Of a stretch of DNA of 64,000 bases, positions 27,227 to 35,144 are shown one piece after another; the stretch's first letter is position 1, and every line of letters begins with the position of its first letter. Location of the stretch: contig NZ_CP049857.1 in NCBI RefSeq assembly GCF_011299555.1, positions 2,418,001 to 2,482,000 of the forward strand, in the 5' to 3' direction. The position numbers and the translations under genes were made by a program. This DNA comes from Dysgonomonas sp. HDW5A. Lineage in GTDB: Bacteria > Bacteroidota > Bacteroidia > Bacteroidales > Dysgonomonadaceae. The notes beneath the pieces were generated by a model, which saw only the letters and a list, made by a program, of their open reading frames with translations, was not told where the DNA came from and made no database searches.

Positions 27227-27988
27227 ATGATTGTATTTTTCTACGATAAAACATTTGAAGGTTTACTTACTGCTGTATTTGATGCTTACAGTAGAAAAAC
27301 TTTTCCTGATAAAATATTAGGTGAGGGGAGTATTGCTCCTATGTTTTTAGAAGAAAGTTATACCGTGATAACTCAGGATGATAAGTCGACAAGAGTATGG
27401 GAATCTCTGCAAAAGAAGTTGTCGAAGATGGCGTGCAATATGCTCAATTACGTATGGCTTTCGGAAGAAGAGGGCAGTGATGATTTATTGTTTCGATATA
27501 TTCGCAAGGTCTTTGATAATACCTATTCTATTGAGATGAATTTTGGCGATGCTGATGTACTTCAAATTCATCAACTAGCAAAAAAAGTATCTAAAGAGAA
27601 GCATTATTTGATTCAGTTTATCCGTTTTCAAAAAGCGGCTGACGGAATCTATTTTGCACCTGTATCTCCTATTTACAATGCCTTACCCTTAACTATAAAT
27701 CACCTGAAAGACCGTTTTTCCGGTCAAAAATGGGTGGTTTATGATTTGAAACGGAAGTATGGTTATTACTATGACCTGCATACGGTTGTTGAAATAACAT
27801 TGAGTGACGACGAACATTTGTTAAGTGGAAAGTTGGATGATGCTCTTATGGCAGAAGATGAAAAGCTTTTTCAGGAATTGTGGAAAGGTTATTTCAAGTC
27901 TATGACGATCAAAGAGCGGATTAATCCGAAATTACATCGTCAGCATATGCCTAAACGTTTTTGGAAATATCTTACAGAGAAACAATAG
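27227..27988 (+). CDS. DUF4130/TIGR03915-family protein, radical SAM partner
   Basis: The 253-residue product begins IVFFYDKTFEGLLTAVFDAY, the standard opening of the DUF4130 domain. It also has HYLIQFIRFQKAADGIYFAPVSP and ends MPKRFWKYLTEKQ. In many bacteria this domain is fused to a uracil-DNA-glycosylase-like domain. That domain is absent here: the protein stops after the DUF4130 part. The gene is 27 bp behind the radical SAM gene and ends at a good terminator, so the two form one operon. A joint role in base repair is inferred from the fused relatives. Confidence 0.82.
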   Translation: MIVFFYDKTFEGLLTAVFDAYSRKTFPDKILGEGSIAPMFLEESYTVITQDDKSTRVWESLQKKLSKMACNMLNYVWLSEEEGSDDLLFRYIRKVFDNTYSIEMNFGDADVLQIHQLAKKVSKEKHYLIQFIRFQKAADGIYFAPVSPIYNALPLTINHLKDRFSGQKWVVYDLKRKYGYYYDLHTVVEITLSDDEHLLSGKLDDALMAEDEKLFQELWKGYFKSMTIKERINPKLHRQHMPKRFWKYLTEKQ

Positions 27989-28399: not shown

Positions 28400-28615
28400 A
28401 TGGCTATGATTAAAGGAAATGCATTACAAATATTACAAGATAGGTATAGTGAAATTGAAGAGGATATGACTTTCAGAGAATTTGTAGAACAACAAGCTGA
28501 TATAGATCCTGATTTTTATAGAACTTTATTTACTGAAAATTCAGGTAGTGCAGCCGGAAGTTCTTTAAACGAGAGACAACTTCAAGCTTATAAAGATTTT
28601 CTGGATAGTATATAA
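28400..28615 (+). CDS. Small acidic protein, 71 residues, unknown
   Basis: The product (start ATG 28400, or the second ATG at 28406) is acidic and probably helical, with FREFVEQQADIDPDFYRTLF in the middle and a Gly/Ser-rich hinge before a final helix ending FLDSI. No signal peptide or membrane segment is seen. It is monocistronic, facing the convergent ROK gene. No family is recognised. Confidence 0.55.
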   Translation: MAMIKGNALQILQDRYSEIEEDMTFREFVEQQADIDPDFYRTLFTENSGSAAGSSLNERQLQAYKDFLDSI

Positions 28616-28707: not shown

Positions 28708-29676
28708 TTATGCGTCTATCAGTTTTGGATTCCAAGCCAATAGGCTTGCACCCAGAATTACTGCATCTGAGTCCTCTATATTCGAAGTAAGTATCTTTGT
28801 TTTTCCGGAATATATTTTCAATACATTTGCTTCAAACGACTCGTTGATAGCTTGTCTGAAAAATTCATTCGATTTGGCAACTTTTCCCGAAAGAATAAAG
28901 GCTCTGGGGCTTGAGTAAGCAACCAGATCAGATAATAATTGCCCTAGTAAATCAGCAGTAAAGTGATACACCTCTTTAGCTAACTTATCTTCTTTTAATA
29001 AAGCCTCGTATACATTTTCAAATGCTAATTCGTTTTGTGGTATATTGCGTAGGATGCTGTCTTCCTTGCTCGATGCTAATAATTCGAGAGTTGTTGCGAC
29101 TATTCCGTCCGTAGAGCAATATGCTTCGAGACAATCTTTTTTACCACATTTACAAGCTCTACCTCTATCGTTATGTACATTTATATGTCCTGATTTACCG
29201 GTGAAAATTTTGTGGCCGTATACTATCTCACCATTTGCTACAGTTCCTCTGGAAACTTCGTTATCAAGGGATAGAAGAATAAAATCTTTCATTCCCTGGG
29301 CTATGCCGTATTCCATTTCTCCCATTGCAGCTGCATTGGCATTATTGGTTAAAGTAATAGGGAGGTGCAGCTTTTTGGTTAGTATCTGAGTAATAGGAGT
29401 ATTGCCATTCCATTTATGATCAGGAGCAAACTCTACACATCCTGTGAAGTAATTACTTTCGGACGAGGCTAAGCCTATTCCCTTTATATTTTTGACTTCT
29501 CCTTGCTGTGCGATTAAAGCCGACAGGTGATCGTATATTGCGTCTATATATTCGGTGATATTCTGATAATCAGAACTAATACTGCTTTTGTTTATAACAT
29601 TACCTTGTGTATCCACAATACCTATCGAAGTAGTGGTATTGCCCATATCAATGCCTATAGCATATGTTTTACTCAT
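28708..29676 (-). CDS. ROK-family protein, probable pseudokinase
   Basis: The 322-residue product is plainly a ROK protein: ASKHA fold, NYFTGCVEFAP, and the zinc motif H164 with CKCGKKDCLE (Cys175, 177, 182). The catalytic signatures are altered. The phosphate loop DxGGT reads DMGNT (10-14). The base Asp of NDAN is Asn (N111-N112-A-N). The glycine loop TLGTGxGxG reads SLDNEVSRG (136-144). The sugar-binding Glu of GExGH is Lys (K161). There is no N-terminal DNA-binding helix, so it is not a ROK repressor either. The frame is intact. It may bind a sugar or partner without phosphorylating it. Confidence 0.85.
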   Translation of the reverse strand: MSKTYAIGIDMGNTTTSIGIVDTQGNVINKSSISSDYQNITEYIDAIYDHLSALIAQQGEVKNIKGIGLASSESNYFTGCVEFAPDHKWNGNTPITQILTKKLHLPITLTNNANAAAMGEMEYGIAQGMKDFILLSLDNEVSRGTVANGEIVYGHKIFTGKSGHINVHNDRGRACKCGKKDCLEAYCSTDGIVATTLELLASSKEDSILRNIPQNELAFENVYEALLKEDKLAKEVYHFTADLLGQLLSDLVAYSSPRAFILSGKVAKSNEFFRQAINESFEANVLKIYSGKTKILTSNIEDSDAVILGASLLAWNPKLIDA

Positions 29677-29856
29677 GGTTGAAATATAAAAGTGGTTACT
29701 GGTTTTCGGTATTCAGGTTTGTTATTTTTATACTTAGACCATGGTTAACGAACCGCGAGAAAAAAATAACGATCAAAGGTCAAAAATAGTGAGGGAAGAA
29801 AAAATGATATATATCAAATAATGATGCTTGAAATCTTAAAAAAAAGGATTGTGTTG

Positions 29857-30438
29857 TTACCATTGTCCTGATCGAACACGACTTAAAGACTCGGGAGTCA
29901 TCAGCAGATAAGAGGCAATATGTGCTATGGGTGCACGTTTGGCAGCTTGCGGATATTCTTTGATAAAACGTTCGTAACGTTCACGAACACTTTCGAAACG
30001 CCACGAATCGGCTTTTTGCTGCGATAAGATTAAGGTTGCTTCTAAGAAGCGACGGTATAATATACCTATCTCGGGTTCTTTTACGGCTAATACTTCGATC
30101 TTATTATATGGGATACAATATAAGATAGTTGGCTCTAAGGCTTCTATTAAGAGACGTGTGGGTTCCTGACGAAAGAAGCTTTCTATACATACCGCAACAT
30201 TGTTTTCACAAGTAAAATGTTCGGTTACATCGCGTCCGTTTTTGTAATAGAATTGCCTGACTAGTCCTTTGTCAACATATTGTATGTATTTGCTTATTTG
30301 ACTATCATTAAGAAATAGCTCTCCTTTTGGTAACTCTTTACGTTCAAGTATCGAAGCAAAGCTCTCCAGATCTTTATTGGAAAGCTCATGCTTATACTTT
30401 ACCGATATTTTTTTAGCTATTTCTATTTGATTTTGCAT
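29857..30438 (-). CDS. Crp/Fnr-type regulator
   Basis: The 193-residue product has an N-terminal cyclic-nucleotide-binding-like beta-roll (about residues 25-125: KELPKGELFLNDSQISKYIQYVDKGLVRQFYYKNGRDVTEHF is the region) and a short C-terminal winged helix (APIAHIASYLLMTPESLSRVR). There is no Fnr cysteine cluster near the N-terminus. This small Crp-like type is frequent in Bacteroidetes, and the effector is generally unknown. It lies 20 bp downstream of the DsbA-like gene, so the two form an operon. Confidence 0.85.
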   Translation of the reverse strand: MQNQIEIAKKISVKYKHELSNKDLESFASILERKELPKGELFLNDSQISKYIQYVDKGLVRQFYYKNGRDVTEHFTCENNVAVCIESFFRQEPTRLLIEALEPTILYCIPYNKIEVLAVKEPEIGILYRRFLEATLILSQQKADSWRFESVRERYERFIKEYPQAAKRAPIAHIASYLLMTPESLSRVRSGQW

Positions 30439-30458: not shown

Positions 30459-31121
30459 TTAGTCGTTATAAACCTTGTTCAACATCTCGAGAAATGAATT
30501 AGAAGGTTGTGCTCCTGATACTGCATATTTACGATTGAAAACAAAAAAGGGTACACTCGTTATTCCAAATACTCCGGCTTCCTGAATATCTGAAATCACC
30601 TTATCTGCAAAATCGTGGTTGTTAAATAGATTTTCGAGCTCTTGTTGGTCTAAGCCTCCATTTATGCCGATCTTTATTAAAGTATCTTTGTCGTTCACAT
30701 TCTTGCCCTCTGTAAAATAGGCCCTGAAAAGTAATTCTTCTATATCGTTTTGATTCTTTCTGCTTTTACCTTTGGCAAAGTGACTTAATCGGTGTGCATT
30801 GATTGTGTTCGCTACTACTACTTTATCCATGTGAAAATCAAGTCCGGTTTGCTTTGCCATGTTAACCACATTTGCAAATAGACCTTCGGCTTGCTGCTTA
30901 GACATACCTTTTTCTCTTACAAAAGAATCAATTAAAGATTCTCCGTGTGTATCTTCAGGTACATTAGGATTTAGCTGGTAGGCTTTCCATTCCAATTCGA
31001 CTTTGTCTTTATGTGCAAATTGTTCAAGAGCTTTTTCGAAATGATGTTTGGCTATATAACAGAATGGACATGCAATGTCGCTCCATACTTCTATATTTAT
31101 TTTTGCGAGAGTAAATGACAT
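30459..31121 (-). CDS. DsbA-family (FrnE-like) oxidoreductase
   Basis: The 220-residue product has a thioredoxin-type CPFC at residues 18-21 right after the first strand (IEVWSDIACPFC), the inserted helical domain, and GITSVPFFVFNRKYAVSGAQ with the cis-proline. There is no signal peptide, so it acts in the cytoplasm, as FrnE-like proteins do. The family reduces or isomerises disulfides or handles glutathione-like substrates, and the substrate is not predictable here. The Crp-like regulator gene follows after 20 bp. Confidence 0.88.
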   Translation of the reverse strand: MSFTLAKINIEVWSDIACPFCYIAKHHFEKALEQFAHKDKVELEWKAYQLNPNVPEDTHGESLIDSFVREKGMSKQQAEGLFANVVNMAKQTGLDFHMDKVVVANTINAHRLSHFAKGKSRKNQNDIEELLFRAYFTEGKNVNDKDTLIKIGINGGLDQQELENLFNNHDFADKVISDIQEAGVFGITSVPFFVFNRKYAVSGAQPSNSFLEMLNKVYND

Positions 31122-32101: not shown

Positions 32102-33682
32102 TTAAAATTCAGATGTAAAATGGAAACGTATATTTTTAAAATCCTGCTGAGCCATCATAAGCACATAGTTTGAGTCAGCGAGAAATACGTCTCTACCTTC
32201 CTTATCTTTGGCCATATACTGAGCTTTTCTTTTCTTGAAGTTCTCAATTTCCTCTATGTCGTCACTTTCAATCCAACATGCTTTGTATAGGTTGATGGCT
32301 TCCCATTTACATTGTGCTCCATATTCATGAAGTAATCGGTATTGAATAACCTCAAATTGAAGCTGTCCTACAGTACCTATAATCTTGCGTCCATTGAATT
32401 GATTGGTGAATAGCTGAGCAACACCCTCATCCATCAACTGATCGATACCTTTTTGAAGTTGTTTAGTTTTCATCGGATCAGCATTCTCTATGTATTTGAA
32501 CATCTCGGGCGAGAAACTTGGTAATCCTTTGAAATGTAGATTTTCTCCCGATGTAAGGGTATCTCCGATCTTAAAATTACCGGTGTCAGGTAAACCGACT
32601 ATGTCACCTGCATAAGCCTCATCAACAGTTTCCTTCTTTTGAGCCATAAATGCCGTTGGCGATGAAAAACGCATTTGACGATTGAATCGCATATGCTTGT
32701 AATTGACATTACGCTCAAATTTCCCGGAGCATATTTTAACGAAAGCAATACATGAGCGGTGGTTTGGATCCATATTGGCATGTATTTTGAAAATAAATCC
32801 GGTGAAAGCCTCTTCATTCGGATCTACTTCTCTCTCTACTGCCTCAATGGGGCGTGGAGATGGTGCTATTTGAACAAAGCAGTCTAACAGTTCCTTTACT
32901 CCAAAGTTGTTTAGGGCAGATCCGAAAAATACCGGAGCAACCTGTCCTTTCAGATAACGATCCATATCGAGTTCAGGATACACTCCTTCGATAAGTTCTA
33001 TATCTTCACGAAGTTTTTTTGCTAAAGTATTGCCGATGTGATTTTCCAGTTCGGGATTATTGATGTCACTAAAGGCGATAGACTCTGTTACCGTTTGTTT
33101 ACTAGGAGTATATAAGTCGAGTTTCTTTTGAAATATATTGTATACACCTTTAAACTGTTGTCCGCTATCTATAGGCCAGCTAAGTGGGCGAACTTTTATT
33201 TTAAGTTCTTCCTCCAATTCGTCAAGAAGATCAAACGGGTCTTTACCGTCTCTATCCATCTTGTTTATAAATATCATAACCGGAGTATTGCGCATCCGGC
33301 AAACCTCCATAAGCTTGCGTGTTTGTGCTTCCACCCCTTTGGCTACGTCAACAGCAATAATTACACTGTCAACGGCTGTAAGCGTGCGATAGGTATCTTC
33401 GGCAAAGTCTTGGTGACCGGGAGTATCTAGAATATTTATTTTATACCCGTCATATTCGAAGCCCATAACAGATGTTGCTACCGAAATACCACGTTGTTTT
33501 TCGATCTCCATCCAGTCGGAGGTTGCAGTCTTTTTTATTTTATTCGATTTTACAGCTCCTGCAACGTGTATCGCACCTCCGAATAATAGTAGTTTTTCGG
33601 TCAGCGTTGTTTTTCCGGCATCAGGGTGACTGATAATCGCAAATGTACGTCGTCTTTTTATTTCTTTTTCTAATTCGCTCAT
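32102..33682 (-). CDS. prfC: Peptide chain release factor 3
   Basis: The 526-residue product is a translational GTPase of the RF3 type: [15 protein letters not shown] (G1, about residue 18), [10 protein letters not shown] (G2), [12 protein letters not shown] (G3) and [10 protein letters not shown] (G4). The C-terminus has [17 protein letters not shown]3 uses GTP to remove RF1/RF2 from the ribosome after termination. The length is exactly that of the family. It is a single gene with a possible -7 box upstream. Confidence 0.96.
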
Positions 33683-34087: not shown

Positions 34088-34093
34088 CACCGT

Positions 34094-34165
34094 GTTTTTC
34101 ATAGTATTAGATTTAAGGTTAATAATTGAGGAGTAGGTTGTCGTGATGACAACCTCTTCTTTTTT
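34094..34165 (+). ncRNA. Probable small RNA, about 70 nt
   Basis: A consensus promoter ends at 34087, so transcription should start near 34094. A strong hairpin terminator ends at about 34165. The 40 bases between contain no start codon with a usable frame and an AT-rich stretch (TTTAAGGTTAATAATTGAGG). Both flanking genes lie on the minus strand, so this plus-strand unit is independent of them. The unit is the promoter-short RNA-terminator design of Bacteroidales small RNAs. I cannot assign it to a named RNA family. Confidence 0.6.
34128..34165 (+). terminator. Terminator of the short RNA
   Basis: AGGTTGTC (34135-34142) pairs with GACAACCT (34148-34155), loop GTGAT. The stem extends across one bulged T through GAGGAG with CTTCTT, followed by T5. 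Confidence 0.8.
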
Positions 34166-34212
34166 GTACCAACTTCATGTTATACAACATATGAACTGCC
34201 CTGAAAACAAAG

Positions 34213-34262: not shown

Positions 34263-35144
34263 TTATTTATAGATTTCTTTCTTACCTGCAAGAAGTGTAT
34301 TTCGCATCAAGGAGATAATTGTCATTGGACCGACACCTCCGGGAACAGGAGTAATGAATCCTGCTTTGGCTGCAACTTCATCAAAAGCAACATCACCTTT
34401 TAGTTTAAAACCTGATTTGGTTTCGGTTGATGGTACTCTTGTTGTGCCAACGTCTATTACTGTTACCCCTTCTTTTACCATATCTCCTTTCAGAAACTCG
34501 GGAGCGCCTAGGGCTGCTATTATAATGTCGGCATTTAAGCATATTTCTTTGATGTTAGGGGTACGACTGTGACATACTGTAACAGTTGCGTCTCCCGGGT
34601 AGCCTTTTTGCATCATAAGAGTCGCAACAGGTTTCCCAACTATATTGCTTCGACCTAATACTACACAGTTTTTTCCTTGAGTAGGTATTTCGTAGCGTTT
34701 CAGTAATTCAACAATACCTGCAGGTGTTGCAGATACGAAGCAAGGAAGTCCTATTGACATACGACCGACATTGATCGGGTGAAAACCGTCAACATCTTTC
34801 CGATAATCAATTGCTTCTATTACTTTTTCTTCTGAAATATGTTTGGGTAAAGGTAATTGTACAATAAAACCATCTATATCTGGATCATTGTTTAACCTTT
34901 CGACGCAGGCGAGTATTTCGTCTTCGGTTACATCGTTCTCATATCTGATAAGTGTTGATTTAAAGCCAACCTCTTCACATGTACGAACTTTGTTTGAGAC
35001 GTAAGTTTCGCTGCCTCCGTCATGACCAACAAGAACGGCAGCCAGATGAGGTGTTTTTCCTCCTTTTGCTTTTATTACACTTACTTCTTCGGCAATCTCT
35101 TTTTTTATTTGAGCGGCTATGGCTTTTCCATCAATAAGTTGCAT
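34263..35144 (-). CDS. folD: Methylenetetrahydrofolate dehydrogenase/cyclohydrolase
   Basis: The 293-residue product has the FolD motifs: [17 protein letters not shown] with the catalytic Lys, [37 protein letters not shown] (nucleotide-binding fold) and [10 protein letters not shown] near the C-terminus. It oxidises methylene-THF with NADP and hydrolyses the methenyl form to 10-formyl-THF in the cytoplasm. The length is normal. It lies 176 bp downstream of ffh on the same strand but with a terminator between, so it probably has its own promoter. Confidence 0.96.

Follow-up and report, generated by a model that had tools for sequence, protein, structure and literature searches.

A RokA-like sugar kinase paralog with degraded catalytic motifs, probably maintained by selection, in a few Dysgonomonas species

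Dysgonomonas sp. HDW5A encodes a ROK-family protein of 322 amino acids (aa) that very probably does not act as an adenosine triphosphate (ATP)–dependent sugar kinase and is maintained by selection, a judgment that leaves aside the question of its partner. The gene, here called the pseudokinase gene, is found in a 64,000-nucleotide stretch of contig NZ_CP049857.1 (positions 2,418,001 to 2,482,000; the window). The open frame, the losses shared among orthologs, the low ratio of nonsynonymous to synonymous substitution, the zinc ligands, and the conserved gene order argue together for a noncatalytic but maintained paralog. In the explanation that we favor, a paralog of the RokA-type glucokinase would have lost ATP binding and phosphotransfer, and purifying selection would keep the noncatalytic protein in a few Dysgonomonas species. 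The zinc-stabilized dimeric ROK fold would persist, and the protein would work through protein contact, probably in the role of a nonenzymatic regulator.

The Pfam ROK model (PF00480) matches residues 7-314 of the pseudokinase with 145.2 bits, against a curated cutoff of 22.9. With the NCBIfam model TIGR00744 (cutoff 260.35), it scores 170.6 bits, and an intact ROK protein of the same genome, encoded at C1:3781280-3782236, scores 236.7 and is likewise below the cutoff. A first-pass annotation of the window, made from the sequence alone, had proposed looking for an active ROK paralog in the genome, and this protein, which we take to be RokA, looks like one: every motif is present, and it is 44% identical to the pseudokinase. 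The same annotation had described a protein without a DNA-binding N terminus. The stop-to-stop frame of 334 aa leaves about 12 residues ahead of the ATG, not enough to hold a helix-turn-helix, and the ROK domain begins at residue 7, so that a hidden upstream helix-turn-helix was ruled out.

Translation of the 322-aa open reading frame (ORF) and alignment with RokA (Table 1) bore out the altered motifs DMGNT, NNAN, SLDNEVSRG, and GKSGH read at first pass, together with the intact zinc histidine (His164) and CxCGxxxCxE motif (C175-x-C177-G-xxx-C182-x-E184) and the RokA-like overall length, and revealed one loss absent from that list, ILFGG of RokA being ILSGK in the pseudokinase. The RokA-type residue is present at Gly13, Asp112, Gly138, Thr139, Gly140, Gly142, Glu161, and Gly265 in all 72 RokA-like rows, which were picked by similarity to RokA or the pseudokinase and are not a random ROK sample; Ser143 is present in 71 of the 72, and the catalytic Asp is missing in none. 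All nine ligand positions (13, 112, 138, 139, 140, 142, 143, 161, and 265) are altered in each of the three pseudokinase orthologs, those of the window, Dysgonomonas alginatilytica, and Dysgonomonas sp. HGC4, which have N13, D138, E140, R143, K161, and K265 in common. Because the same residues are changed in two other species, sequencing error was ruled out as the source of the losses. The claim that all catalytic signatures were lost holds for the catalytic Asp, the loop glycines, and the sugar-binding Glu but not for Asp10 (metal), Gly12, Asn111, His164, and Glu184, which are retained in all three orthologs along with Gly144 and Gly264; Thr14 is retained in two and is Ser in HGC4. The predicted zinc ligands His164, Cys175, Cys177, and Cys182 are also present in all three. 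Catalytic position 112 is Asn in the window copy (codon AAT) and Gly in the other two (GGA or GGT). Since AAT and GGT are each one step from the Asp codon GAT, the common ancestor may have kept Asp112 longest, after the phosphate loops and Glu161 had already been lost.

Mutants of a characterized relative bear on what these changes would do. In a study of Plesiomonas NagK (PMC10031466), activity was undetectable in D105N and in D6N/D6A, the turnover number (kcat) of T132V was down ~11-fold, the Michaelis constant (KM) of E154Q for N-acetylglucosamine was >50 mM, and His157 also binds zinc. Mapped through the motifs by a constant offset of 7, a correspondence we infer rather than read from an alignment including NagK, residues D105, T132, E154, and H157 correspond to positions 112, 139, 161, and 164. 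By this mapping, the equivalents of 105, 132, and 154 are altered in the pseudokinase and that of D6 is retained, which makes phosphotransfer from ATP very unlikely but would leave room for some binding of metal or nucleotide.

The gene appears to be under constraint. Between the D. alginatilytica and HGC4 copies, nonsynonymous substitutions per site (dN) are 0.049 and synonymous substitutions per site (dS) 0.70 by the Nei-Gojobori method (NG86), a ratio of 0.07, and maximum likelihood gives 0.049 and 0.68; pairs with the window copy are saturated in dS (NG86 1.35 and 1.51; dN 0.14 and 0.13). The same 322-codon frame without a stop is found in all three orthologs, and the frame stayed open in 0 of 2000 neutral simulations at the D. 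alginatilytica–HGC4 divergence. Among columns invariant in RokA, 44 are lost in all three orthologs, and 32 of these hold an identical new residue in all three, a share comparable to that among columns not invariant in RokA (135/191), so the new residues are roughly as constrained as the rest of the protein. A dN/dS of ~0.07 shows that the pseudokinase is constrained by purifying selection rather than decaying, and the proposal of a pseudokinase under selection has thus stood up. A decaying duplicate on its way to becoming a pseudogene would fit a dN ~10- to 14-fold that of RokA (0.129 vs. 0.009; 0.142 vs. 0.013; 0.049 vs. 0.005) and a stem branch of 2.28 changes per site in the phylogeny, but it is highly improbable; the shared residues, the dN/dS, and the neutral simulations led us to reject it.

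Several observations weigh against a maintained, noncatalytic protein. The orthologs number only three, and structure prediction from their three-row alignment yielded a low-quality model (predicted local distance difference test 43) rather than a usable structure. Constraint is somewhat weaker than on the neighboring genes in the D. alginatilytica–HGC4 pair, where the dN and dS are 0.043 and 0.81 for the Crp-like gene (ratio 0.05), 0.017 and 0.36 for the DsbA-like gene (0.05), and 0.021 and 0.76 for the DUF4130 gene (0.03), and far weaker than on RokA (0.005/0.39 = 0.01). Loss extends beyond the active site: of 127 RokA-invariant columns, all three orthologs have lost 9 of the 17 ligand columns and 35 of the 110 others, an enrichment that is not significant (Fisher p 0.10) for a ligand set picked after viewing the alignment. 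Finally, with Asp10 kept in all three orthologs and Thr14 in two, weak nucleotide or metal binding by the pseudokinase is still possible. These residues and the persisting part of the sugar pocket are also what an enzyme of altered chemistry would retain, using for instance another phosphoryl donor or the same fold for a different reaction, and pseudokinases of other folds have sometimes proved to be enzymes. We consider this improbable: the catalytic base and the phosphate-loop glycines are gone, Asp138 and Glu140, which would be expected to repel phosphate, stand in the loop instead, and the catalytic position varies (Asn or Gly) between orthologs.

The only close orthologs found are those of D. 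alginatilytica (79% identity) and Dysgonomonas sp. HGC4 (75%), in which both the losses and the gene order match. The pseudokinase is thus present in 3 of 101 Dysgonomonadaceae genomes, including the window's own, the next-best match being RokA-like (48%). Two nearly complete genus genomes (G031 and G032, 98-99%) have no close copy, and a third (G034), only 62% complete, is uninformative on absence. In an order-level sample of 393 genomes, in which D. alginatilytica and HGC4 are not listed, the window's own copy was, among the matches listed, alone in exceeding the RokA level (697.6 bits, against 369.6 for the next). Among plasmid records the best match was 47.6% and no close copy emerged, and a scan of viral contigs added just one distant ROK protein (27%). 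One scan of genome contigs, made with peptide patterns that may overlook divergent copies, gave two loci. In a phylogeny of 75 rows, in which two of the three pseudokinase rows have odd composition, the pseudokinases nest on a very long branch inside a 64-row clade of Bacteroidales RokA proteins (support 100/99). The free tree groups them weakly (90/55) with L129 and four rows, one a Bacteroides finegoldii plasmid record. Constraining them to join the genus's own RokA was not rejected by the approximately unbiased test (p 0.331), nor was joining nearby Dysgonomonadaceae rows (0.277). On this phylogeny, the gene could have arisen by duplication inside the genus or have been acquired from another Bacteroidales.

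How a noncatalytic paralog might act is a more tentative matter. The protein may contact RokA, the adjacent Crp-like protein, or a ligand. A dead paralog without a DNA-binding domain that forms mixed dimers with RokA or restrains it, or that passes a sugar-phosphate signal to the Crp-like regulator, is a possibility we put forward tentatively; it would be a bacterial pseudo-hexokinase regulator. In the likeliest version of the explanation that we favor, itself tentative, the pseudokinase would pair with the cell's active RokA in a mixed dimer or compete against it; contact with the Crp-like regulator comes second and is rather unlikely. According to PMC10465942, Tannerella MurK, a sugar kinase of the same superfamily, forms a dimer, and so do other glucokinases; a mixed dimer of pseudokinase and RokA would accordingly be possible. 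Slightly more doubtful than the RokA version is a ligand sensor, in which the remodeled sugar pocket (Asp112 and Glu161 lost, Lys161 gained) would bind a phosphorylated or acidic sugar and domain movement would signal to a partner. All three orthologs retain the sugar-side residues Asn111, His164, and Glu184 and share Lys161, and the ROK regulators described act mostly in carbon catabolite repression, according to PMC4856308. However, the sugar-contacting Glu is lost, and its Gln mutant in NagK, E154Q, had a KM >50 mM (PMC10031466); the RokA loop GAPNGN is altered, and the protein itself lacks a DNA-binding domain that could relay a signal. The first-pass annotation had suggested a sugar sensor or a regulator of a paralog; the sensor option is weakened by Lys in place of the sugar-contacting Glu of GExGH.

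The neighborhood bears on the version involving the Crp-like regulator. In all three species, the genes run in the order DsbA/FrnE-like, Crp-like, pseudokinase, all codirectional, and the block is flanked by the gene at 32102-33682, presumably prfC, and by a convergent DUF4130/radical-SAM pair. The DsbA-like and Crp-like genes likewise have close copies only in the three of six genus genomes that have the pseudokinase. None of the three block genes has a close copy in G031 and G032 (best Crp-like 48% and 33%; DsbA-like 36% and 37%), where the flanking genes (matching 32102-33682 and 27227-27988) are on different contigs and the empty site cannot be read as one site. Around five remoter relatives of the Crp-like gene (48-58%), the ~1.5 kilobases read on each side contain no DsbA-like gene and no pseudokinase. 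This pattern suggests that the three genes are one inherited block, although common descent alone would give the same pattern. That they form one functional module, with the pseudokinase as partner of the Crp-like regulator, would account for their adjacency and joint presence or absence and for the remoter Crp-like relatives standing apart from the other two genes, but a block common to three related species can be left by descent, and the 180-base-pair gap between the Crp-like and pseudokinase genes permits separate transcription; we regard the module as unlikely. Simple scans gave no clear excess of sigma-70 promoters (16 vs. 13.1 in shuffles) or terminators (1 vs. 2.0).

Within that gap, a 19-base stretch on the minus strand (29799-29817) with the palindrome GATATATATC shows no difference between the three species. 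Two small conserved ORFs lie between the pseudokinase and the DUF4130 gene; a 71-aa ORF at 28400-28615 (plus strand), without a Pfam match and convergent with the pseudokinase, is kept in place at both orthologous loci. Elsewhere in the window, 34092-34166 (plus strand) matches the Bacteroidetes small RNA family FopS (Rfam RF04319; 75.6 bits vs. 56) beside the gene 34263-35144, whose product is presumably FolD.

Table 1. Positions in the window of the pseudokinase gene, its motifs, and its upstream neighbors
Feature	Position	Strand	Basis
ROK pseudokinase coding sequence, 322 aa, ATG start	28708..29676	minus	ORF list, Pfam, alignment, dN/dS
Phosphate loop D10-M-G-N-T14 (RokA: DIGGT)	29635..29649	minus	alignment
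N111-N112-A-N114 (RokA: NDAN), catalytic Asp gone	29335..29346	minus	alignment
S136-LDNEVSR-G144 (RokA: TLGTGVGSG), second phosphate loop gone	29245..29271	minus	alignment
G160-K-S-G-H164 (RokA: GELGH), sugar-binding Glu gone, zinc His kept	29185..29199	minus	alignment
Zinc motif C175KCGKKDCLE184, intact	29125..29154	minus	alignment
L262SGKV266 (RokA: LFGGL), late glycine motif gone	28879..28893	minus	alignment
Intergenic stretch 5′ of the pseudokinase gene, mostly conserved in three species	29677..29856	minus	sequence comparison
Crp/Fnr-like regulator, 193 aa, adjoining the pseudokinase in 3/3 species	29857..30438	minus	cNMP_binding 23 bits, under the Pfam cutoff of 27.5
DsbA/FrnE-like thioredoxin-fold protein, 220 aa, opening the co-inherited block	30459..31121	minus	gene order, Pfam

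Pfam ROK matches in the genome amount to five genes (six pieces), including the pseudokinase and RokA. Two shorter ROK proteins (274 and 275 aa) keep the Asp and glycine loops, and the zinc motif is absent. A second motif-loss gene lies outside the window, at C1:2635885-2636832, and encodes 315 aa without a helix-turn-helix; its motifs read DLGRS, TNIK, IGSDID, and QDVKH, with CNCGRYNCVE intact. Of 101 family genomes, 9 (its own among them) have a relative of this gene, a count that omits one distant match of 26%. The Asp (NDVK) and GE.GH are kept in six of the nine (L160-L165) and lost in C1:2635885-2636832 and in its D. alginatilytica relative (NNIR, ISTSIE, GAIGH); the G008 relative, whose match falls into two pieces, has lost the Asp, the GE.GH part being outside the comparison. 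With a dN of 0.30 and saturated dS, constraint on C1:2635885-2636832 is not established. Motif loss in the pseudokinase and in this gene, six of the nine genomes with the latter keeping the Asp and GE.GH, shows that the ROK catalytic motifs have been lost at least twice, independently, in the lineage, and it suggests that conversion of ROK kinases to regulators may be recurrent there.

We found no earlier description of a ROK pseudokinase among the papers listed in the literature searched, a scope that excludes most subscription journals, so that one may already be in print. If the proposal is true, it would provide a simple bacterial case of a sugar kinase turning regulator, with an active-looking paralog in the same cell and no DNA-binding domain, and a prediction approachable with two small proteins. 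The ROK family includes kinases, helix-turn-helix regulators, and uncharacterized reading frames, according to PMC4856308. With the RokA-type glucokinase of Bacteroidales, the pseudokinase has family, length, and zinc motif in common, but RokA keeps all catalytic motifs and is 98-99% identical across the three species, whereas the pseudokinase, 75-90% identical, is missing the catalytic Asp, the glycines, and the sugar Glu. It shares the ROK domain with the NagC/Mlc repressors and is weakly similar to their NCBIfam models, scoring 118.5 bits with NagC and 107.4 with Mlc, far under the curated cutoffs of 650 and 530, and it lacks the N-terminal helix-turn-helix that is theirs. Plesiomonas NagK, as described in PMC10031466, has the structural zinc in common but is an active enzyme, unlike the pseudokinase as we read it, and its D105N mutant, without detectable activity, copies the natural Asp-to-Asn change of the pseudokinase.
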